Assembly (NCBI GenBank): GCA_022340245.1 | Contig: JAJDOI010000159.1 | Span: forward strand, 1 to 34,621 | DNA from: Thiogranum sp. | GTDB taxonomy: Bacteria > Pseudomonadota > Gammaproteobacteria > DSM-19610 | DNA length: 34,621 bases | Direction of reading: 5' to 3' | Shown: positions 3,276 through 30,903 of the stretch, piece by piece | Layout: each line of letters begins with the position of its first letter | Position numbering within the stretch: the stretch's first letter is position 1 | The notes under the pieces: generated by a model | The model's database searches: none | Told to the model about the DNA's origin: nothing | What the model saw: only the letters and a program-made list of their open reading frames with translations | Position numbers and translations under genes: made by a program

Positions 3276-5354
3276 TTACATGTGCCGAGCGTAAGCTTTC
3301 ATCAGACTGGGTACGTCCAGGATCAGTGCAATTCGACCGTCGCCGGTGATTGTCGCACCGGCGAAACCGGCCAGTCCCTGCAGGAAGGCACCCAGCGGTT
3401 TGATCACGACTTCTTCCTGGCCGACCAGTTGTTCAACGACGAAACCGACCTTCTGGCTGCCCACGTGAACAACCACGACATGGCTCACAGTATCCTCGTG
3501 CGCCTTCGATCCGTCGCCAACCAGCCATTCGCGCAGGTAAAACAGCGGCAAGGCCTTTTTGCGCACCATGACGACCAGCTGGCCGTCGACCATGTTGGTC
3601 CGGGTCTCGTCGAGGTCGAAAATCTCGCTGACACTTCCAAGCGGCAGGGCAAACGGCTGCGCGCCGAGTTTAACCATGAGTGTCGGCATGATCGCCAATG
3701 TCAGCGGCACCCGGATCATCAGGCGAGTACCCTTACCGAGTACCGAATCAATCTCGACGGTGCCGTTCAACTGACCGATACGGGTCTTGACAACATCCAT
3801 GCCGACTCCGCGCCCGGACACATCGGAGATCTGCTCCTTGGTGGAGAAACCGGCTGCGAAAATCAGGTTATAGGCATCACCGTCATCCAGGCGTGCCGCC
3901 GCCTCGGCATCCATCAGGCCTTTCTCAACCGCCTTCTCGCGAAGCTTGACCGGATCCATGCCCTTGCCGTCGTCCTCGATGGAAAGCAGGATATGGTCGC
4001 CTTCCTGTTCGGCTGCAAGAATCACCGTGCCCGCGCGCGGCTTACCCGCGGCCAGGCGCTCTTCAGGGCTTTCGATACCGTGGTCGACGGCATTGCGAAC
4101 CAGATGCACCAGCGGGTCGGCCAGCGCCTCGACCAGGTTTTTGTCGAGGTCGGTCTCCTCGCCCTGCAATTCCAGTTGAATTTCCTTGTTGAGGCTGCGG
4201 GCCAGATCGCGGACCACGCGCGGGAAACGCCCGAACACTTTCTTGATCGGTTGCATGCGCGTCTTCATCACCGCGTTTTGCAGATCGGCAGTCACCACGT
4301 CCAGGTTGGCTATCGCCTTGGACATGTCCTCGTTCGCCATAGACTCCTTCAGCGTCGCCAGGCGATTGCGGGTCAGCACCAGCTCACCGACCATGTTCAT
4401 GATATCGTCCAGGCGCTTGGTATCGACGCGCACTGTGGCTTCGGCCTTGCTGGCGGCAGGCGCCGCGGGCGGCTTCGGCTTGTCGGCGGGCACCGCTGCC
4501 GCGGCGGCCGCCGCGGGTTTTGCAGGCGCTGCAGCTACGGGATTGTCGCCGTCGCCCGCGGCCCCCGGTGCAGGCGCCTTGCCGGCGCCGTGCAGCTGAT
4601 CGAGCAAGGCCTCGAACTCGTCTTCGGTGATCTCATCGGCGCCCCCGGCTGTCTCGGCCACGGACTCGGGCGCCGCCTGGGGCGCGGGCGGCGGGCTGTT
4701 GGGCAGGGTTTCTGCAGTCGGGGCTTTGCCCGCACCGTGCAACTGATCGAGCAGCGCCTCGAACTCATCTTCGGTAATGTCATCACCACCGGATACGGTG
4801 TCCGCCCCGCTCGCCTGCGACGCAGCCTCATCGGGCGATGGCGCCGACTGTTGCAGCATGGCCTCGAATTCAGCGTCGACGGCATCGGCCGCCTGGGCGC
4901 CGTCACCAGCTGGCGCTTCGGGCGCTGCATCCGGCTGCGCCGGGGCAGGCGCAGGCGCGGCGCCACCCGGAGCAATCAGGTTCTCCAGACTCTTCAGCAA
5001 TGCAGGCTCCGCCGGCGTCGGCATGCTCCCGCCCTGGACCTCGGTGAACATGCTGTTGACCACGTCGAGCACCTGCAGGACAGTATCCATAAGATCGGTG
5101 TCAACGGCGCGCTCGCCGTTGCGTAACACGTTAAACACGTCTTCGGCCCGGTGGCAGACTTCAACCAGACCGTCGAGGCTGAGAAAGCTGGCGCCGCCCT
5201 TAATGGTGTGGAAGCCGCGGAAAACGGCATTCAACAGGTCAACATCTTCGGGACGCTGCTCGAGCTCGACCAGTTCTTCATTCAGCCTTTCAAGTATCTC
5301 GCCTGCTTCGACCAGAAAGTCCTGCAGAATCTCATCGTCGGCGTCAATACTCAT
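3276..5354 (-). CDS. cheA: Chemotaxis histidine kinase CheA with tandem linker repeats
   Basis: CheA phosphorylates CheY and CheB in response to receptor state. The protein is 692 aa from the ATG at 5354, which has AGGGA 7 nt upstream; a GTG one codon earlier is possible. Domains: P1 Hpt (about 1-105) with phosphorylatable His49 in FRGFHTIKGGASF; a long Ala/Pro linker (about 108-303) with no recognisable folded P2; P3 dimerisation (about 305-365); P4 HATPase (about 370-545) with RNAVDHGIE, EDDGKGM and GRGVGMDVVK; P5 CheW-like (about 548-692). The linker holds two near-identical copies of DxITEDEFEALLDQLHGAGK and one weak copy. Such polar-type gammaproteobacterial CheAs use this linker for localisation. 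It lies 8 nt after cheZ. Confidence 0.97.
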   Translation of the reverse strand: MSIDADDEILQDFLVEAGEILERLNEELVELEQRPEDVDLLNAVFRGFHTIKGGASFLSLDGLVEVCHRAEDVFNVLRNGERAVDTDLMDTVLQVLDVVNSMFTEVQGGSMPTPAEPALLKSLENLIAPGGAAPAPAPAQPDAAPEAPAGDGAQAADAVDAEFEAMLQQSAPSPDEAASQASGADTVSGGDDITEDEFEALLDQLHGAGKAPTAETLPNSPPPAPQAAPESVAETAGGADEITEDEFEALLDQLHGAGKAPAPGAAGDGDNPVAAAPAKPAAAAAAAVPADKPKPPAAPAASKAEATVRVDTKRLDDIMNMVGELVLTRNRLATLKESMANEDMSKAIANLDVVTADLQNAVMKTRMQPIKKVFGRFPRVVRDLARSLNKEIQLELQGEETDLDKNLVEALADPLVHLVRNAVDHGIESPEERLAAGKPRAGTVILAAEQEGDHILLSIEDDGKGMDPVKLREKAVEKGLMDAEAAARLDDGDAYNLIFAAGFSTKEQISDVSGRGVGMDVVKTRIGQLNGTVEIDSVLGKGTRLMIRVPLTLAIMPTLMVKLGAQPFALPLGSVSEIFDLDETRTNMVDGQLVVMVRKKALPLFYLREWLVGDGSKAHEDTVSHVVVVHVGSQKVGFVVEQLVGQEEVVIKPLGAFLQGLAGFAGATITGDGRIALILDVPSLMKAYARHM
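4572..4637 (-). repeat. CheA linker repeat, copy 2
   Basis: This stretch encodes the 22-residue unit with core ITEDEFEALLDQLHGAGK (about CheA residues 240-261). It repeats the unit at 4719-4784 with one amino-acid difference (DE versus DD at the start). DNA similarity between copies is high but third positions differ, so the duplication is not brand new. Confidence 0.9.
4719..4784 (-). repeat. CheA linker repeat, copy 1
   Basis: First full copy of the linker unit (about CheA residues 191-212), 27 residues before copy 2. A weaker relative, DAEFEAMLQQ, is encoded at 4848-4877. The unit is acidic and amphipathic and is set in disordered Ala/Pro-rich sequence, which is what a short linear docking motif looks like. 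Confidence 0.9.
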
Positions 5355-6590: not shown

Positions 6591-7322
6591 TCAGTCACCC
6601 GTCCATTCCGTCATGCGGGCCCGCAGCCGGATAAGGGCCTGGCCATGAATCTGACAAACCCGGGATTCGCTGACACCCAACACGTCGCCGATTTCGCGCA
6701 GGTTGAGTTCCTCGTCGTAATACATGGCCATTACCAGGCGTTCGCGTTCCGGCAGGTTGGAGATCGCCTCGGCCAGCGCCGCCTTGAAATCGGCGTTGTG
6801 CAGGCTGTCCAGCGGCTCGTTGCGTGGCGCGTCGGCAACCGGCTGAGGCGCGTCATCGCCGTTGACACCCGCGTCGTCGATACTGAAAACGCGGCAACCG
6901 GTGGCGTCCTGCAGGATACGGTGGTACTCATGCAGGTCGATGCCGAGTTTTTCCGCCACCTCGACATCGCGTGCGTCCCGGCCTTCCTGGTTCTCGATTT
7001 CGCGCACGGCTTCGGCTACCTGGCGGGCCTTGCGATGCACCGAGCGCGGCGTCCAGTCGGTGCGCCGTATTTCGTCGAGCATGGCTCCGCGAATACGAAT
7101 GCCGGCATAGGTTTCGAAGCTGGCGCCCTGCGACGCGTCGTAGTTGCGCGAGGCTTCGAGCAGGCCGATCATGCCGGCCTGAATCAGGTCATCGGCCTGC
7201 ACGCTCGGTGGCAGACGACTCATCAGGTGGTAGGCGATACGCTTGACCAGGGCCGCGTGTTTGGAAACCAGGTCTTCGCTTTCAATGTCAGGATTGGTCA
7301 CGTACATAGCGGCTCCATTCAT
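6591..7322 (-). CDS. fliA: Flagellar RNA polymerase sigma factor FliA (sigma-28)
   Basis: FliA directs transcription of late flagellar genes (flagellin, chemotaxis) once the hook is complete. From ATG 7322 it is 243 aa, the usual length; the frame stays open upstream, but this ATG overlaps the flhG stop as ATGA, which indicates coupling. Region 2 is visible at residues 26-100: core-binding HLMSRLPPSVQADDLIQAG, then -10 recognition through YDASQGASFETYAGIRIRGA and MLDEIRRTDWTPR. Region 4 (about 190-235) has LPERERLVMAMYYDEELNLR and the helix-turn-helix IGDVLGVSESRVCQIHGQAL for -35 recognition. FlgM, the anti-sigma factor, is not in the window. Confidence 0.96.
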   Translation of the reverse strand: MNGAAMYVTNPDIESEDLVSKHAALVKRIAYHLMSRLPPSVQADDLIQAGMIGLLEASRNYDASQGASFETYAGIRIRGAMLDEIRRTDWTPRSVHRKARQVAEAVREIENQEGRDARDVEVAEKLGIDLHEYHRILQDATGCRVFSIDDAGVNGDDAPQPVADAPRNEPLDSLHNADFKAALAEAISNLPERERLVMAMYYDEELNLREIGDVLGVSESRVCQIHGQALIRLRARMTEWTGD

Positions 7323-8200
7323 ACCGATATCTCCATGTGTCCACAGTGCGACTGGATGAGACGCTCCACGAAAAACTCGAGGTGCCCACCAGCCGCCGAT
7401 GGCGTCGGCCATCTGTCGGTCTTCTGAGCGAGATTCTTGAAGGCGATCGAGGCGCGACTGCGCGGGTACGCCTGAACGACAGCGCGCTGCTTGCGTACCG
7501 CCTTGCGCAGGTAGTCGTCATGCGGCACAACCCCCATTAATTCCAGGGTGACGTCAAGGTAACGATCGGTAACGCGTGATATCTTGTTAAACAATTCCCT
7601 TCCCTCCTGGGCACTCTGTACCTGATTGGCCAACACGCGGAAATGCTGAACGTCATACTCAGTGCTCAACACCTTGATCAGCGCATAGGCGTCGGTGATC
7701 GACGCCGGCTCATCGCACACCACCACCACAACCTCCTGGGCGGCGCGACTGAAGCTGGTGACACTTTCATTGATCCCCGCCGCGGTATCTATAATCAGCG
7801 TGTCGACATCGTGATTCAGTTCACTGAACGCACGGATAAGGCCCGCATTCTCCATGGTGCTCAGCTCGGCCAGGCGTTTTACGCCGGAAGCCGCCGGCAC
7901 CACCATGATCCCGGACGGCCCCTCGACAATGATTTCTTCCAGTGTGCGTTGGCCGTCGATGACATGCGACAGGTTGCTCTTGGGATGCAGGCCCAGCAGG
8001 ACGTCCACGTTCGCCAGCCCAAGATCGGCATCCATCAGCATCACCCGTTTACCCGCATCGGAGAGCGCCACTGACAGGTTTACCGAGACGTTGGTTTTAC
8101 CGACGCCGCCCTTGCCACTCGTTACCGCAATCACTCTCACCGGGTTAGGTTGTGCCATACGTCGTAATCCAGCCGCCTGGTCGGTTCGCAACTCAGACAT
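7319..8200 (-). CDS. flhG: MinD-like ATPase FlhG (FleN), flagellar number regulator
   Basis: FlhG limits flagellar number at the pole; it stimulates FlhF GTPase and, in Pseudomonas, antagonises FleQ. From ATG 8200 it is 293 aa and overlaps flhF by 8 nt; an ATG at 8206 is also possible. The N-terminus has DQAAGLRRM (residues 7-15), the short helix known to activate FlhF. It is followed by the deviant Walker A SGKGGVGKT (28-36), MDADLGLANVDVLLG (Walker A') and LIIDTAAG (Walker B region). The C-terminus GGHLEFFVERLI forms the amphipathic membrane-targeting end expected in this family. It overlaps fliA by 4 nt. Confidence 0.95.
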   Translation of the reverse strand: MSELRTDQAAGLRRMAQPNPVRVIAVTSGKGGVGKTNVSVNLSVALSDAGKRVMLMDADLGLANVDVLLGLHPKSNLSHVIDGQRTLEEIIVEGPSGIMVVPAASGVKRLAELSTMENAGLIRAFSELNHDVDTLIIDTAAGINESVTSFSRAAQEVVVVVCDEPASITDAYALIKVLSTEYDVQHFRVLANQVQSAQEGRELFNKISRVTDRYLDVTLELMGVVPHDDYLRKAVRKQRAVVQAYPRSRASIAFKNLAQKTDRWPTPSAAGGHLEFFVERLIQSHCGHMEISV

Positions 8201-9419
8201 GAACATTCGTCCGGAATCCTCCAAATTGCTCGGCCATGACTGAGTCGGCGGGCAAGTCACGACCGCTCGCCAGTTCGGCGGCCTGCTCGACAAGGTTCTG
8301 CGCACGCGCGGGATGCAGGTCTTCGGGGACCCGTTGACCGTTGGCGACGAACATCAGCGGCAGGTGTTGTTTGATAACCGTCGACAGGACGCCACCCAGG
8401 CTGGCCGCCTCATCGAGCTTGGTGAGAATCGCCGCGTCCAGTGCGACGCTGGAAAACGCCCGGATGGTTTCATCCATGACCGAGGGATGCAGTGTGGCCG
8501 ACAACACCAGCAGCGTACGGATGGGAATACCGCTGTCGGCCAGGGTGGCAAACTGTTGGCTCAGACGCACATCACGCTGGCTCATGCCGGCGGTGTCGAT
8601 CAGAACCAGGCGCTTGTCGGCCAGGCTGTTCAACGTGGAGCGCAGTTCCTTGTGGTCGGCAGCAACCTGCACGGGTATGCCCAGCAGGCGCCCGTAGGTC
8701 ATCAGTTGTTCATGAGCGCCGATGCGATAGCTGTCGGTTGTCACCAGCGCAACATGGCGCCTGCCGTGGCGCAACACGTAGCGTGCGGCAAGCTTGGCGA
8801 CACTCGTGGTCTTGCCTACGCCGGTGGAACCGACCAGGGCGACGACGCCCCCCTGGTCGCAAAAATCGTTATCGGCGATCGGCAAGGTTGCCGCAAGTTC
8901 GGTCAACGCCAGTTGCCAGGCGTGCCGTTCGTCGCGCGCGTGCACCGCGGGTGCGGACACCCGCTCGACCAGCGCCGGATCCAGTTCCATAGCGGTGAGC
9001 CGACGCATAACCTCGGTGTACAAGGGCTGGCGACGCTCGGTGTCGTTCCATGCCAGGTGTGCCAGCTGGTTTTCCAGCAGGCCGCGCAGTTGCCTGATTT
9101 CCTCGCGCATGGACACAATGGCCGGGTCCTGCGCCCAGTCCACGGGCTGCACCCGCCGCTGCTGCGCCGCCGCCGGCGCGCTGAAGGTATCCGCCGCGTC
9201 GGGCGTTGGGGCTTGCGCGCCTGCTGCGTCCGAACCCGCCGCCTCGGCCGCAGCCGACTGCGGTTCGAGCAACGATTCGTCGTAGTCCAGCGCGGCGATA
9301 ATCTCGATCCCGCCTTCGACCTGCCGGTTGGAGAGAATCACGGCATCCGGGCCCTGGTCCTCGCGCACTTTCTGGATCGCCTGACGCATGTCCGGCGCAA
9401 AGAAGCGTTTAACTTTCAT
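8193..9419 (-). CDS. flhF: SRP-type GTPase FlhF, polar flagellar placement
   Basis: FlhF recruits the first flagellar components (FliF) to the pole. The 408-aa protein has the three expected parts: an N-terminal basic B domain (MKVKRFFAPDMRQAIQKVRE onward, with a variable Ala-rich linker to about 95), a helical N domain (about 100-185), and a G domain with P-loop GSTGVGKT (197-204), the LIDTAGMSQRD G3 motif and the TKLDEAASLGG G4/G5 region. It starts 58 nt after flhA with a GGGAG ribosome site and overlaps flhG by 8 nt. Presence of both FlhF and FlhG points to polar flagellation. Confidence 0.96.
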   Translation of the reverse strand: MKVKRFFAPDMRQAIQKVREDQGPDAVILSNRQVEGGIEIIAALDYDESLLEPQSAAAEAAGSDAAGAQAPTPDAADTFSAPAAAQQRRVQPVDWAQDPAIVSMREEIRQLRGLLENQLAHLAWNDTERRQPLYTEVMRRLTAMELDPALVERVSAPAVHARDERHAWQLALTELAATLPIADNDFCDQGGVVALVGSTGVGKTTSVAKLAARYVLRHGRRHVALVTTDSYRIGAHEQLMTYGRLLGIPVQVAADHKELRSTLNSLADKRLVLIDTAGMSQRDVRLSQQFATLADSGIPIRTLLVLSATLHPSVMDETIRAFSSVALDAAILTKLDEAASLGGVLSTVIKQHLPLMFVANGQRVPEDLHPARAQNLVEQAAELASGRDLPADSVMAEQFGGFRTNVHV

Positions 9420-16630: not shown

Positions 16631-17185
16631 CTATTGCATGACAAAACTGGTAAAGAAAACACTTTCGACACCGGGTTTGCCGGTCTCGGCTTTCATCACT
16701 TTCTGGATTTCAGTCAGAGCATCCGCGCGCAGTTTTTCCTTGCCTTCACGGGTGTTGAGAGCTGTCGGGTCCTGGCTGCTGAAGAGCATGACCAGGCTGT
16801 TGCGTATGGCGGGCCGCTGCTCCTTGACGCGCTCCACGGCGTCCGGATCGCGGGTGCCGGCTTCGATGGTAATCTGCAGAAAACGGATATCGCTGTCGCC
16901 GCTGAAATTGACCACAAACGGGGGGTCGAGCGGGATATAGTTCAGGGGAGGCTTGCTGCTGGCGAGCTTATTGCCGGCGCCTTTGTCGGCCTTGACGTCG
17001 GACGCGCTCTGCACATCAGCCGGCTGGTCGCCGCCGGACAGTATGCCGGTCAACATAAGTGTTGCCGTGGCGGAAACGCCCAACAGCAATACCACGACGA
17101 CAATCACAATGAGCATCTTGGACTTGGACTTGGGCGCTTCTGCACCACCCTCGATATCCAGGTCCAAATCGTCTTCCTGTGCCAT
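16631..17185 (-). CDS. fliL: Flagellar basal body-associated protein FliL
   Basis: FliL rings the stator and supports motor torque. From ATG 17185 (AGGGG upstream; the in-frame TTG at 17191 is unlikely) it is 184 aa. It has an acidic cytoplasmic N-terminus, one membrane helix (about 24-47, MLIVIVVVVLLLGVSATATL) and a periplasmic stomatin-like domain with YIPLDPPFVVNFSGDSDIRF and TREGKEKLRADALTEIQKVM. It heads the fliLMNOPQR-flhB run behind a strong sigma-54 promoter and follows the globin-sensor gene. Confidence 0.95.
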   Translation of the reverse strand: MAQEDDLDLDIEGGAEAPKSKSKMLIVIVVVVLLLGVSATATLMLTGILSGGDQPADVQSASDVKADKGAGNKLASSKPPLNYIPLDPPFVVNFSGDSDIRFLQITIEAGTRDPDAVERVKEQRPAIRNSLVMLFSSQDPTALNTREGKEKLRADALTEIQKVMKAETGKPGVESVFFTSFVMQ

Positions 17186-17220
17186 TTGCAAACCCCTGTT
17201 TTAGCTTGTGCTTGAGGGTT

Positions 17221-17236
17221 AGCAAGACGTGTGCCA
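17221..17236 (-). promoter_or_regulatory. Sigma-54 promoter of the fliL operon
   Basis: On the minus strand it reads TGGCACACGTCTTGCT, matching the -24/-12 consensus TGGCAC-N5-TTGCW at every consensus position. The predicted start lies about 25 nt before the fliL ATG. It is the best promoter match in the window and would place the C-ring and export-gate genes under FleQ or FleR plus RpoN. Confidence 0.88.
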
Positions 17237-17360: not shown

Positions 17361-17380
17361 GAATCCGGTCAGCCGGAATC
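17361..17380 (-). terminator. Weak hairpin at the end of the globin-sensor gene
   Basis: GATTCCGG-CTGA-CCGGATTC overlaps the stop codon of the sensor gene; seven of eight arm positions pair. No T-run follows, so termination would be Rho-dependent or inefficient. Confidence 0.3.
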
Positions 17381-19643
17381 AGTGCCTGGCGTGGGACAAC
17401 CACTCGCCAAAGCCTTCGTTCGGCAGCGGTTTGCTGATGTGAAAGCCTTGTACCAGGTCGCAGCCGAGGTCCTGCAGTCGTTGACGGATGATTTCATCCT
17501 CCACGCCTTCGGCGACCACCTGGCAGTCGAGGTTATGGCCCAGTTCGATGATCGAACGCACTACCGCCACATCGCGCGGATTGTTGGCCATATCCTCGAG
17601 GAAGGACTGGTCGATCTTGAGTGTGTGGATCGGCAGTCGTTTCAGGTAGGACAGTGACGAATATCCGGTGCCGAAGTCATCGATGGCGATCGAGACACCG
17701 AGCTCGCTCAGACTGTCGAGCGTCCGGGCGCCTTCTTCGAGGTCGGCCATCAAGGTGGCCTCGGTAACCTCGATCTCCAGGCTGCTGCCCTCAAGACCGG
17801 CCCGTTCCAGGGCGTCTCTGATGCTGCCAACCAGGCCCGGCGACTGGAAGGAGCGTGCCGAAACATTCACCGAGATCGGCATGGGTTTTCCACCGGCTGA
17901 CCAGAGCTTGCTTTGCTGCAAGGCGGTATCCAGTACCCAGTCAGTGATCGGGGCGATCATGCCGAGCTGCTCGGCGACTGCGATAAACCGCGTCGGCAGT
18001 ACCAGCCCCTGTTGCGGGTGCTGCCAGCGTAACAGCGCCTCGGCACCGCGGATTTCGCCGCTGGCAAGGTCTATCTTCGGCTGGTAATGCAGCTCGAACT
18101 CCTGGCGCTCCAGCGCGCCGTGCAGTTGCCCGGAGAACTGCAGGTGCTCGGTCGCCGACGACGGCACGAGGTCAGCTTCGTAAAAAAGGTAGGGCACGGA
18201 ATTCCACTTGGCGCGATACATGGCCCGGTCGGCATGGTTGGCCAGCGCATTGGCATCCTCGCCGTGCTGGGGATAGACCGAAATACCGATGGCACTACTG
18301 AGGCAGAGTTCCCGCTGTTCATGCGAGAACGGCGCCCGCAGCGCGTTGATCACCTCACCGGCGACGCGCTCCACGGCACGCTCGGCATCCTGCAGAAACG
18401 GCAGAACGATACCGAACTCGTCGCTGCCCAGGCGGGCGAGCGTATCGGTGTCGCGCAGTACTCTTTGCAGGCGCCGGGCGATCTGGCGCAACAGTTCATC
18501 GCCGGCCTGTTGGCCGAGCGAATCGTTGTACATTTTGAACTGGTTGATGTCCAGCACCATCACGGCCACTGAGGCTCCGGGATTGCGTCGCGCCACGGCC
18601 AATGCAGAACTGAGGCGGTCGTACCACAGTGCACGGTTAGCCAGCCCGGTGATTTCGTCCTGTGTGGACAGCTGTTCGAGCCGCTCGCGGTCGGTGTGCA
18701 TGTCCGTGATGTCTTCCATGAGACAGTGTACGCGTAACACGCGTCCACGACGGTTGGCCATCGGATAGAAGGCCATTCGAAACCAGCGATCCGTCTGGTC
18801 GTCATTGTCTTCGGCGCACAGGCGAAGTTCCAGCTGTACCGACTCGTTGTCGATCACCTGCTGCCAGGCGGTTAGCACGCGTTCGCGTTCGCTGCCGTAA
18901 ATACGATAGAAACAGGGGATCGGTGCTTCGAGTTCCTGACGGCAGAAAGCCCGGGTCCCGGGACTGGCGTAGCTGATGCTGTTGCTCTCGATGTCCACTG
19001 TCCAGAGCAGTTGCGGGATATTGCTGAGAAGCTCGCCGGCGAGCGACTGTTCGGCGCCGAGTTCGTCGCGCTGGTCGGTCAACTGGTCGATCGCGGCACG
19101 CCAGTAGGCCTCGGTCATCACCGCCAGGTCGCGGAAAATCATTTTGATCAACGCCGACTCGACCGCGTCACGGTCCTCGTGCGCAATCTGCGGGTCGGTT
19201 GCAACCAGTTGTTGCAGGTGGTCGAGGAACAGGCGGTAGGCGCCCAGCGTCCATACCGGTTTGACGCCTCGCCGGTAGTGGGCCCTGCCGATCTGTTCCG
19301 ATTGCTGGGTCACCGCTTCGTCGATATCGCCGCTCAGAAGACCCAGCTTGTGCCCGAGCATCGCGCGCACCAGTTCGCCAATGTTGCCGCCATCGCGCTC
19401 GAAGGCATACAACACATCGGCGATGTCGGGATTGTCGAAGAGGTAGTTGTAACTGGTTTCCGCGAAGCCGGCCGCACCCTGGACCAGCACACCCTGGTAA
19501 CGTTTGAGTAACTCCGTATCCGCAGCGCTCAGCTGCAGAACATAGTTGACCTCTTTGCCAAGCAAGGGGCTGGAGGATTTTTTACGCGCGCCAGTGCGCC
19601 TCTCCTCTTTCGGCCGCCCGCGTTTCCTCGTGGGTGTTGGCAT
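17379..19643 (-). CDS. Globin-coupled PAS-GGDEF-EAL protein, probable heme-sensing c-di-GMP phosphodiesterase
   Basis: This 754-aa protein (numbering here from ATG 19643) begins with a basic, AT-hook-like KRGRPKEERR. A sensor globin follows (about 35-180) with proximal His122 in IGRAHYRRGVKPVW and the LGAYRLF stretch typical of globin-coupled sensors. Next come a PAS-like domain (about 200-312), GGDEF (about 323-490) and EAL (about 503-748). The GGDEF signature is RLGSDEF and the preceding motif reads LDINQFK with Gln for the usual His (SLGQQAGDELL), so cyclase activity is doubtful. The EAL domain keeps EALLRW, NVSARSF, EVTE, IDDFGTGYSS, LKID, AEGVED and QGF, so hydrolysis of c-di-GMP is likely. 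It sits between fliK and fliL, 146 nt after fliK, an unusual place; heme ligand (oxygen, NO or CO) is unknown. Confidence 0.9.
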   Translation of the reverse strand: MPTPTRKRGRPKEERRTGARKKSSSPLLGKEVNYVLQLSAADTELLKRYQGVLVQGAAGFAETSYNYLFDNPDIADVLYAFERDGGNIGELVRAMLGHKLGLLSGDIDEAVTQQSEQIGRAHYRRGVKPVWTLGAYRLFLDHLQQLVATDPQIAHEDRDAVESALIKMIFRDLAVMTEAYWRAAIDQLTDQRDELGAEQSLAGELLSNIPQLLWTVDIESNSISYASPGTRAFCRQELEAPIPCFYRIYGSERERVLTAWQQVIDNESVQLELRLCAEDNDDQTDRWFRMAFYPMANRRGRVLRVHCLMEDITDMHTDRERLEQLSTQDEITGLANRALWYDRLSSALAVARRNPGASVAVMVLDINQFKMYNDSLGQQAGDELLRQIARRLQRVLRDTDTLARLGSDEFGIVLPFLQDAERAVERVAGEVINALRAPFSHEQRELCLSSAIGISVYPQHGEDANALANHADRAMYRAKWNSVPYLFYEADLVPSSATEHLQFSGQLHGALERQEFELHYQPKIDLASGEIRGAEALLRWQHPQQGLVLPTRFIAVAEQLGMIAPITDWVLDTALQQSKLWSAGGKPMPISVNVSARSFQSPGLVGSIRDALERAGLEGSSLEIEVTEATLMADLEEGARTLDSLSELGVSIAIDDFGTGYSSLSYLKRLPIHTLKIDQSFLEDMANNPRDVAVVRSIIELGHNLDCQVVAEGVEDEIIRQRLQDLGCDLVQGFHISKPLPNEGFGEWLSHARH

Positions 19644-19697
19644 CGCCAAGTCCGGTAGTTGTTATAATTGTCCCCGAAAGGTAACACAGCAATATCC

Positions 19698-19789: not shown

Positions 19790-21064
19790 TTAGGCAAACA
19801 AGTCCAGACGGCCCCGTGCGACGAATGCGCCAAGCGGTGTTTGGGTGTGGATTTTCAGCTCCGGCTCGCTGACGTCAATATTATGGCTCCAGGGCTGCCC
19901 GAATGAATCCTGCGCGGCCTGCTGCTGCTGGGCGAACGATTGTCCCGACGACACATCCACGTTCACCAACTGAACGCCGGAAGCCTCGAACATGTCGCGC
20001 AAACGCGGTAACGCGGCTTCCAGTGCCTCCCGTACCACGGCATGGTGCGACGTGAACTGGATACTGGCCTGGTCGTTCTGCACCTGGATACGGACTTCCA
20101 TGGGGCCCAGGTTGGCCGGATTCAACTTGACCTGCGCACCCTGCACCTTCTGACTGGCCAGCCACTGGATACGCTCGCCCAGCGCCTGGTCCCAGTCGGG
20201 CTGGCCAAAGGGCGTATTGAGCACAACGGTCGGGGTCGCGGATGCAGCGTGAGCGGCGCCAACAGGCGCGCCGGTCATTGGTGACGCGCCGGCGAGCAGT
20301 GATTCGGCGCGCGGCAGCGCCTCGGACGACGCCGAGCGGTTATCGCTCAACAACCGCTTGAAGGCCGCCGTGAGAACGGCTATGTCGGCAGCGCCGCCGT
20401 CCGGCGGCGCAGTCGACTGTTGCAATTGTGTCCACGCCGTATCCAGCGCCGACGGTTTAGCGTCGTTGGCGACTGACTGCTGGATAGACTGCTGAACCGA
20501 CTGCTGCAGATCCGCAGGCGTATCGGCGGCTTTGTGCGCGACGTTTGCCAATGCGCTGTGGCTCGGCGGCAGTGCCTCGCGCGCAAGCGGACCTGGCGGA
20601 AGTGTCCTGCCCTGTGCAATCGCGTCCAGTACATCGGCGGGCAACGCCGACTTGAGAGCCGGCTGTTCCTGAACCATCTGCTGCAAGGCCAGCGCCAGTT
20701 GTTGCGCCGGGTCCCGGGTGGTGTCCTGTGTCATTACTTTAAGCTTGGCGGCCAGATCCGCCACAAACTTCTTGAGATCAATGCCGCTGGCCGCAACCCG
20801 GTCCAGCGTCTGCTGCAACAGCGGCAACAGCTTGCCGCCCTGCGGCAGCTTTTGCAGCTCGGCAATCAGTTGCTGAGCGTCCACAGGCACCGCACCCGCG
20901 TCCTGCGCGACCGGCGCGAGGCCGGAAACGAGCTGCGCGAGCACCCCGCCGAAGCCGTTGGAAGCCTCGCTATCATATTGATTTATTTTAATATCTAAGC
21001 CTGCCCCGGGCGGCACCCCGGATGCCGTGACGGCGATTGGCAAACCCGGCAAGGATGGGTTCAT
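19790..21064 (-). CDS. fliK: Flagellar hook-length control protein FliK
   Basis: FliK is exported as a molecular ruler and triggers the FlhB switch. From ATG 21064, with AGGAG 7 nt upstream, it is 424 aa; an ATG at 21085 lacks a ribosome site. The N-terminal and middle parts are Gln/Ala-rich and low in structure, as usual. The conserved C-terminal domain (about 295-405) contains LNPANLGPMEVRIQVQNDQA, followed by VVREALEAALPRLRDMF and SGVQLVNVDVSSG. It starts 62 nt after fliJ. Confidence 0.94.
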   Translation of the reverse strand: MNPSLPGLPIAVTASGVPPGAGLDIKINQYDSEASNGFGGVLAQLVSGLAPVAQDAGAVPVDAQQLIAELQKLPQGGKLLPLLQQTLDRVAASGIDLKKFVADLAAKLKVMTQDTTRDPAQQLALALQQMVQEQPALKSALPADVLDAIAQGRTLPPGPLAREALPPSHSALANVAHKAADTPADLQQSVQQSIQQSVANDAKPSALDTAWTQLQQSTAPPDGGAADIAVLTAAFKRLLSDNRSASSEALPRAESLLAGASPMTGAPVGAAHAASATPTVVLNTPFGQPDWDQALGERIQWLASQKVQGAQVKLNPANLGPMEVRIQVQNDQASIQFTSHHAVVREALEAALPRLRDMFEASGVQLVNVDVSSGQSFAQQQQAAQDSFGQPWSHNIDVSEPELKIHTQTPLGAFVARGRLDLFA

Positions 21065-21126
21065 CCCTTCACTCCTGTGCAACATTCAACTCACTTGCAG
21101 GGATGAGAGCAATGCCCGTGCCAGGT

Positions 21127-29092: not shown

Positions 29093-30556
<1,464 letters not shown>

Positions 30557-30903
30557 CGACGTGTTGCCTGACTGGTGTGTTTCTCGTGGTTGATCGGCCG
30601 GAAATTTCCCGCCCACGCACAGTTAAGCACTCTTGAACGGCGTTGTCAAAATTTTGTCATAGGGACAGCAAGGCGAAAGCCCCGCACATCTTGCTGATTC
30701 AACTGGATATACTGGCGTCGCACGGAGCGGGACAGCACCGATGGCGGAAAGAATTGCGCCAGGCACTCCCTGGGCAACCCGAAAAACAGGGGTCACGTTT
30801 AGCTAAAGTTCAGGATTTCTCCTGGAGTGCGGACCGGACCCGGTCAAGCCTCCCGGGCGAACGCCCGTCGAGTCGAAACGACGCCGGAACGCGGCCCGGA
30901 TTG
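30557..30903 (-). other. fliT-fleQ intergenic region rich in inverted repeats
   Basis: This 347-nt gap is the largest without a gene. In transcription order it holds GTCG-TTT-CGAC (30872-30882), CGGGCG-TT-CGCCCG (30854-30867), GACCGG-GT-CCGGTC (30832-30845), CAGGA-GAAA-TCCTG (30811-30824, GAAA tetraloop) and TTTAGCTAAA (30798-30807), then five Ts at 30782-30786. It can both end the filament operon and form a structured RNA. The fleQ promoter is in the downstream part. The short open frames crossing it have no ribosome site or known motif. Confidence 0.7.
30621..30649 (-). promoter_or_regulatory. Candidate sigma-70 promoter of fleQ
   Basis: A perfect -35 TTGACA (30644-30649) is followed after 17 nt by TTAACT (30621-30626), a fair -10 with three of six consensus bases. 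The leader to the fleQ ATG would be about 58 nt. Sigma-70 control of fleQ is known in Pseudomonas. Confidence 0.6.

Follow-up and report, generated by a model that had tools for sequence, protein, structure and literature searches.

The 34,621-nt stretch of Thiogranum sp. DNA analysed here (the window; contig JAJDOI010000159.1) contains a large flagellar cluster, in which a gene for a 754-aa globin-PAS-GGDEF-EAL sensor protein (17379..19643, minus strand) lies between its upstream neighbour fliK (19790..21085, minus; PF02120, E = 1e-24) and its downstream neighbour fliL (16631..17191, minus; PF03748, E = 1e-27). The reading frame is open over 17379..19649 from a TTG, and the ATG at 19643, which is also the gene boundary given in the first-pass annotation, is the better start; the corresponding Met was invariant in the 13 rows of alignment A1. 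Numbered from the TTG, the protein matched the Pfam models Protoglobin at residues 37–185 (E = 7e-19), PAS_4 at 254–317 (marginal, 23.5 bits against a cut-off of 23.1), GGDEF at 329–481 (E = 4e-44) and EAL at 508–741 (E = 1e-77). The first-pass annotation had called this architecture and placement from motifs, and both were confirmed by the open reading frame, the Pfam matches and the flanking gene models, with the PAS domain marginal. A chance open reading frame or frame-reading artefact was rejected given the Pfam domains, orthologues within the genus and a confident structure model, and the recurrence of architecture and place in related genomes indicates that the locus is more than chance.

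Among the surrounding genes, a first Pfam scan of the window named fliD, fleQ, fliF, fliG, fliI, an NtrC-type regulator (fleR) and a histidine kinase (fleS), and a second library scan named fliM, fliN, fliO, fliP, fliR, flhB, flhA and flhF; motA, motB, cheB, flagellin, flaG, fliT, fliS and fliJ were likewise library-named. We named fliE, fliH, flhG, fliA, cheY, cheZ and cheA by eye from translation and place, including the flhG/fleN-like ATPase gene that follows flhF (7319..8305, minus), whose product is a FleQ partner in Pseudomonas. The full-length model of the sensor protein (mean pLDDT 86.1, pTM 0.41) was confident within domains and uncertain in their mutual arrangement, with MorA, PA0575, PA0861 and DosP as best PDB fold matches. 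The N-terminus (window 19580-19643, minus) is basic and variable among relatives, with pLDDT <50 at residues 1-20, and includes KRGRPKEERR, which we take to resemble an AT-hook.

We then assessed the protoglobin domain (19095..19541, minus; PF11563) for features of globin-coupled sensors (GCSs). A phmmer search of the sensor globin against PDB sequences gave two matches only, HemAT (1or4, E = 5e-4) and AfGcHK (E = 1e-3), both weak. In the HemAT alignment, the sensor segment IGRAHYRRGVKPVW falls on IASIHLRIGLLPKW, such that His122 (754-aa numbering) lies on the His of HemAT 'IHLRIG', which we take to be the proximal heme ligand, and therefore occupies the proximal ligand position; Tyr65, on the distal side, aligns with HemAT Tyr70 by hand count. 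The globin-only model (pLDDT 92.8) gave 16 matches in the PDB with E no higher than 0.001, 15 of them named GCS globins (HemAT, AfGcHK, G. sulfurreducens GCS and B. pertussis GCS chains) and one a Thermosynechococcus globin domain, with DosC next at 2e-3. The protein thus combines an N-terminal protoglobin/GCS-type globin with an output domain, a proximal His and a distal Tyr, and the first annotation's suggestion to check fold and heme pocket was borne out by the match to solved globin-coupled sensors with both residues in place. These residues and the modelled fold suggest that the sensor globin binds heme and O2. The equivalent His/Tyr pair in DosC is H98 (proximal) and Y43 (excerpt of PMC5549716). 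E. coli DosC and B. pertussis BpeGReg share the globin fold and the His/Tyr pair with the window's protein, and both are globin-coupled cyclases; E. coli DosP, whose structures are among the full-model fold matches, senses by a heme-PAS domain instead.

On the output side, the GGDEF domain (18207..18665, minus; PF00990) carries a GSDEF motif and an intact RxxD I-site (R397, D400), and the EAL domain (17427..18128, minus; PF00563) retains its EAL motif and all eight checked metal and catalytic residues (E535, N593, E625, D655, D656, K676, E712 and Q732), which we take to be the catalytic positions. From these residues, the main output of the enzyme is predicted to be c-di-GMP hydrolysis, and its own GGDEF domain may also be an active cyclase. 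A second globin-coupled sensor, with globin and GGDEF domains only (354 aa), is encoded on another contig of the same genome (C220; L001:952-2013, minus) and had orthologues (E <= 1e-40) in 9/13 genus genomes searched, own included; it is likely a cyclase and a possible opponent of the window's enzyme.

Exact TGGC-N7-TTGC sites occur six times in the window. Three lie on the coding strand before fliK (TGGCACGGGCATTGC, 21109..21123, minus), fliL (TGGCACACGTCTTGC, 17222..17236, minus) and fliD, and the others lie inside genes, at 4436 (+), 16960 (+) and 20683 (−). Across loci, an exact sigma-54-type site preceded fliK in 21/23 and fliL in 12/23, and none was found within 220 bases upstream of the sensor gene in any of 37 loci (L033 and L048 being one genome). 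A sigma-54 promoter belonging to the sensor gene itself was unsupported, as the five one-mismatch sites equalled the background of ~0.14 per 220 bases, and a scan for sigma-70 promoters and terminators returned nothing above shuffles. With a site before fliK and no exact one before the sensor gene, fliK and the sensor gene look like one sigma-54 transcription unit, likely driven by the fliK promoter sequence. In Pseudomonas, fliK is a class III gene (sigma-54 and FleR) and fliL a class II gene (sigma-54 and FleQ; excerpt of PMC8036289).

The placement of the sensor gene was conserved in relatives. Orthologues were found in 16/17 genomes of the genus, own included, the copies of G006 and G012 being truncated where their contigs end. 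Two of the three other genomes of the window's family also have one, and in the third (G019) a globin fragment of 56 residues lies near fliK where the contig ends. fliK was upstream in all 17 copies with upstream sequence (18 copies in the family in all; the contig of G005 is cut upstream, with fliL present downstream). fliL followed within 260 bases in 10/18 copies and at 2.7 kb in G008 and 1.1 kb in G010; no fliL was found after the gene inside the fetched region of G003, and in five copies the contig ended first. The only member of the genus (of 17) that lacks the sensor gene, G007, is 82% complete, and a search of that genome for FliI returned distant ATPase paralogues only and no FliI. 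Two further observations concern this family: a 470-aa ORF without Pfam match is inserted between the sensor gene and fliL in G008 (L037:5694-7103, minus), and fliK and the sensor gene of G003 (L041) lie far from fliI and near a PAS-GGDEF gene, through either rearrangement or an assembly fault.

Beyond the family, we counted each genome once (L062 is G410, L063 is G411, L064-L070 are seven genomes of G376's order, and L046-L061 are G genomes already searched). In the order of G140, the sensor gene was present in 11/11 genomes and preceded by fliK in 11/11 (for G405, the automatic neighbour row took another ORF, and the fliK neighbour was taken from other scans of the locus), with fliL within 350 bases downstream in six and about 8 kb away in G412. 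Genes of HNH type and for an IS-type transposase follow the sensor gene in Thiohalobacter thiocyanaticus (L063), where the fliI and fliG models also match in two or more frames, as frameshifts in the draft would produce. G101, alone in its order, has the arrangement fliK-sensor gene-fliL (1/1). The order of G247 carried the gene in 4/6 genomes, three with fliL downstream on contigs that end upstream; the fourth copy (G415; L142/L145) directly follows a HAMP-MCP signalling gene, not flagellar genes. A second type of placement was found in the order of G376, in which 17/23 genomes have the gene, fleQ is upstream in 15/15 copies with flank, and flhG- and fliA-like genes are downstream in 9/9 loci with enough downstream sequence. 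Neighbourhood conservation, which the first-pass annotation had proposed as a check, therefore held in several families (fliK 17/17, 11/11 and 1/1; fleQ 15/15). Its opposite, a gene limited to one strain, failed against the same placement in related genomes, and with orthologues across the genus, the family and other orders we rejected a one-strain oddity.

In a wider sample of the class (369 genomes), 24 genomes matched the sensor protein at E <= 1e-12, the match of G357 falling outside the globin. Half of the matches (12/24) were in fliK, fliL or fleQ/flhG placements and 12/24 had no recognised flagellar neighbour in the fetched stretch. In three genomes of one family (f22), a small FlhB-like ORF lies several kb from the match, and at four scanned non-flagellar loci the neighbours were of topoisomerase and citrate-transporter type, a CBS-domain gene and an unmatched gene, of PhzF and YdjM types, and of PBP/OmpA and hexapeptide type, respectively. 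As a placement control, FliL was found in 25 of 56 class genomes, which gave 30 loci and 23 distinct fliL-fliM places; the window's alone has a sensor gene upstream (0/22 others), and the fliK model matched upstream in 13/22 control loci, the other flanks being unrecognised. A sample of the phylum (398 genomes, E <= 1e-30) matched only the window's own sensor and so showed no wider spread. An enzyme gene that merely happens to sit in the operon and is inherited along would fit the inheritance of gene order within families and the tolerance of inserts past the gene (2.7 kb in G008, ~8 kb in G412, the IS-type transposase in Thiohalobacter). We nevertheless consider such an unlinked insertion very unlikely, as the placement is conserved in several families, the second place is again beside fleQ/flhG/fliA-type genes, the EAL residues are conserved, and the sole genus member without the gene also showed no fliI.

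FleQ, the sigma-54 master regulator, is encoded within the window (29093..30616, minus; PF06490) and aligned with its best PDB match, FleQ 8p53, over residues 29-503 of 507 (E = 1.7e-170). The c-di-GMP contacts of FleQ named in the available part of PMC10723142 include R138, R144, R151, R185, E330, R334 and Glu332, and the same source reports that c-di-GMP inhibits FleQ. The window's FleQ keeps the first six, Glu332 not being placeable in the alignment, and these six were intact in 14/14 FleQ sequences, window included, 10 of them from fleQ-type loci. The LFRS and VARN motifs noted at the outset as c-di-GMP-binding are both present. FliM, the flagellar marker searched, was found in only one (G281) of the 10 fleQ-type genomes searched. 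Since seven of the ten are near complete (>=90% complete, <=5% contaminated; FliM in one of those seven), incompleteness alone is a poor explanation of the missing FliM. In G281, the flagellar cluster is on a separate contig, with a fliK-fliL junction that has no sensor gene and with its own flhF-flhG. Because one family has the gene after fleQ, with nine of ten genomes without FliM, the sensor gene appears to be linked to FleQ rather than the structural flagellar operon.

Some details of these loci are reported here as side observations. The flagellar contig of G281 also carries an ORF (L189:12773-14926, minus) that scores 532 bits against the sensor-enzyme model and lies ~6 kb past flhG. The cassette fleQ-sensor-flhG-fliA is found in L064-L070, L093 and L099, with AMMECR1, Memo and GlgB genes close by in L066, and the L069 contig with this bacterial-type locus is titled Halobacteria archaeon, probably a mislabelled bin.

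To place these copies relative to each other, we built a tree from 51 of the 53 proteins gathered, omitting L136 and L137 as short. The residue table covered all 53 rows, and relatives alignment A3 held 37 of 42 relative ORFs (L094, L097, L109, L110 and L112 omitted as short, fragmentary or odd); G350, G171, G391, G406 and the own-genus copies L004, L008, L013 and L018 were not gathered. fliK and fleQ copies formed one clade (37 rows, support 100/100), with the fleQ copies as a subclade (99/95) adjoining the window's family (29 rows, 100/99), and the 14 rows outside it were 11 copies in other placements and the three fliL-side rows of G247's order. As the tree was rooted by midpoint only and has flagged long branches (among them L110, L101, L127, L135 and L020), the direction of the gene's move is not proved.

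The residue table showed uneven conservation of the three domains. Distal Tyr65 was Tyr in 42/42 fliK-, fliL- and fleQ-side copies. His122 was kept in 21/24 fliK, 3/3 fliL-side, 8/15 fleQ and 11/11 other copies, and replaced in 1/22 full-length fliK copies, both short fliK copies and 7/15 fleQ copies, which requires at least four changes on the tree. Because this residue was lost repeatedly at the same gene places, heme sensing appears dispensable in relatives and would not be what holds the gene at its places. All eight EAL positions were complete in 21/24 fliK, 3/3 fliL-side, 15/15 fleQ and 8/11 other copies, the three incomplete copies in the last group being one family; the full-length G101 copy has E625D. 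Among truncated copies after fliK, G350 (L094) has 480 residues and no EAL domain, with Tyr at the His place by eye (outside the residue table), and G405 (L137) and G409 (L136) are short, without GGDEF or proximal His and with altered EAL residues. That such copies (and, to the extent visible on its cut contig, that of G406) stay after fliK without heme ligand, GGDEF or EAL would be expected if the protein acted as a trigger or scaffold that binds c-di-GMP or GTP and contacts FleQ, FlhG or the export apparatus, with catalysis secondary; this is unlikely, as the intact EAL positions in the fleQ copies and most fliK copies go beyond what a scaffold needs.

Canonical GGDEF was found in 16/24 fliK, 3/3 fliL-side, 1/15 fleQ and 11/11 other copies, and GSDEF in 3/24 fliK copies, namely the window's and its two nearest relatives. 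This pattern bears on a two-way switch, in which the gas state would decide between synthesis by GGDEF and destruction by EAL, so that FleQ is blocked or released. DcpG of Paenibacillus dendritiformis provides the precedent, having like the window's protein globin, GGDEF and EAL in one chain, and showing phosphodiesterase activity with O2 and diguanylate cyclase activity with NO (excerpt of PMC10882959). The two output domains and RxxD I-site of the window's protein, together with the GGDEF or GSDEF motifs of most fliK copies, are consistent with such a switch. We regard it as doubtful because copies near flagellar genes have repeatedly lost canonical GGDEF (the tree requires five changes or more) while mostly keeping the EAL residues, and because the motif in the window itself is GSDEF. 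The window's protein differs from DcpG in this GSDEF motif and in its PAS-like middle domain, and the excerpt states no flagellar gene context for DcpG.

Other known systems share parts of this arrangement. Chp1 of Azorhizobium caulinodans is a protoglobin phosphodiesterase activated by O2, as proposed here, and PdeO is also listed as O2 (+), whereas AxPDEA1, a heme-PAS phosphodiesterase, is O2 (−) (excerpt of PMC8846402). Mobile elements of Acidithiobacillus likewise encode GCS-GGDEF-EAL and Protoglobin-GGDEF-EAL-CZB proteins, and one ICE lists a FleQ-like protein too; these differ in that plasmids or ICEs carry them and some include CZB, and the available part of the source states no fliK-fliL or fleQ-flhG placement (PMC6416229). 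ACAty_c1319 of Acidithiobacillus caldus is likewise a c-di-GMP enzyme encoded beside fliL, motA and motB, but it is a diguanylate cyclase, is located downstream of those genes and is not described as a globin in the excerpt of PMC4331095. The literature covered, including parts of PMC9600515, PMC6956133 and PMC12805357, describes no GCS between fliK and fliL or next to fleQ, and as most subscription papers were outside the search this is weak evidence of novelty. The parts of the sensor are thus of known kinds, and we found no report of their coupling, conserved at two places, in the literature searched.

Taken as a whole, we favor, at a probability of roughly 55%, a globin-coupled sensor that mainly hydrolyses c-di-GMP, is produced from the fliK unit and acts on the c-di-GMP pool read by FleQ. 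FleQ and then FleR would start the flagellar units with sigma-54, as established in Pseudomonas and applied here since FleQ, FleSR and the promoter sequences are present. The promoter before fliK would also transcribe the sensor gene, whose globin would bind heme and O2, and the ligand state would set EAL activity, most likely with O2 as the activating state by analogy with DcpG, Chp1 and DosP/PdeO. A fall in c-di-GMP would then free FleQ, an effect also established in Pseudomonas, so that oxic water would strengthen commitment to the flagellum and falling O2 or rising NO would release it. Analogy does not settle the sign of the O2 effect, given the opposite response of AxPDEA1, which counts against this reading. 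With fliK in class III in Pseudomonas, the enzyme would be made later than the first step of FleQ, and its effect on c-di-GMP may be global rather than local. The circuit from oxygen or NO through FleQ to motility in the first-pass annotation is partly supported, by the residues, the fold, the EAL domain, the FleQ contacts and the conserved neighbourhood; heme sensing as what holds the gene was not upheld, the His being lost in relatives, and the partner appears to be FleQ instead of the structural operon.

An enzyme of this class in the fleQ-flhG family would act for FleQ directly, including where no flagellum is evident. This would also suit a mobile partnership, in which a globin-linked phosphodiesterase dedicated to FleQ is older or wider than its flagellar role, with one lineage in the fliK unit and another as fleQ-enzyme-flhG-fliA in bacteria mostly without an evident flagellum, where FleQ, its c-di-GMP site intact, would control genes for the surface or pili in response to oxygen or a different cue. 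We regard this as plausible at somewhat short of even odds; if true, the heme ligand's repeated loss in that lineage would point to a globin retuned to some signal other than heme.

Judged from sequence and by analogy, the window's protein is probably an O2-tuned, FleQ-linked phosphodiesterase. Sulfur bacteria such as Thiogranum and Thiohalobacter, the names of several related contigs, live in oxygen gradients. How the many c-di-GMP enzymes of a cell are matched to their receptors has long been asked, and a sensor enzyme tied genetically to FleQ at two chromosome places offers a testable case of enzyme-receptor pairing, with natural variants available in which the heme ligand, the cyclase motif or, apparently, the flagellum is missing.
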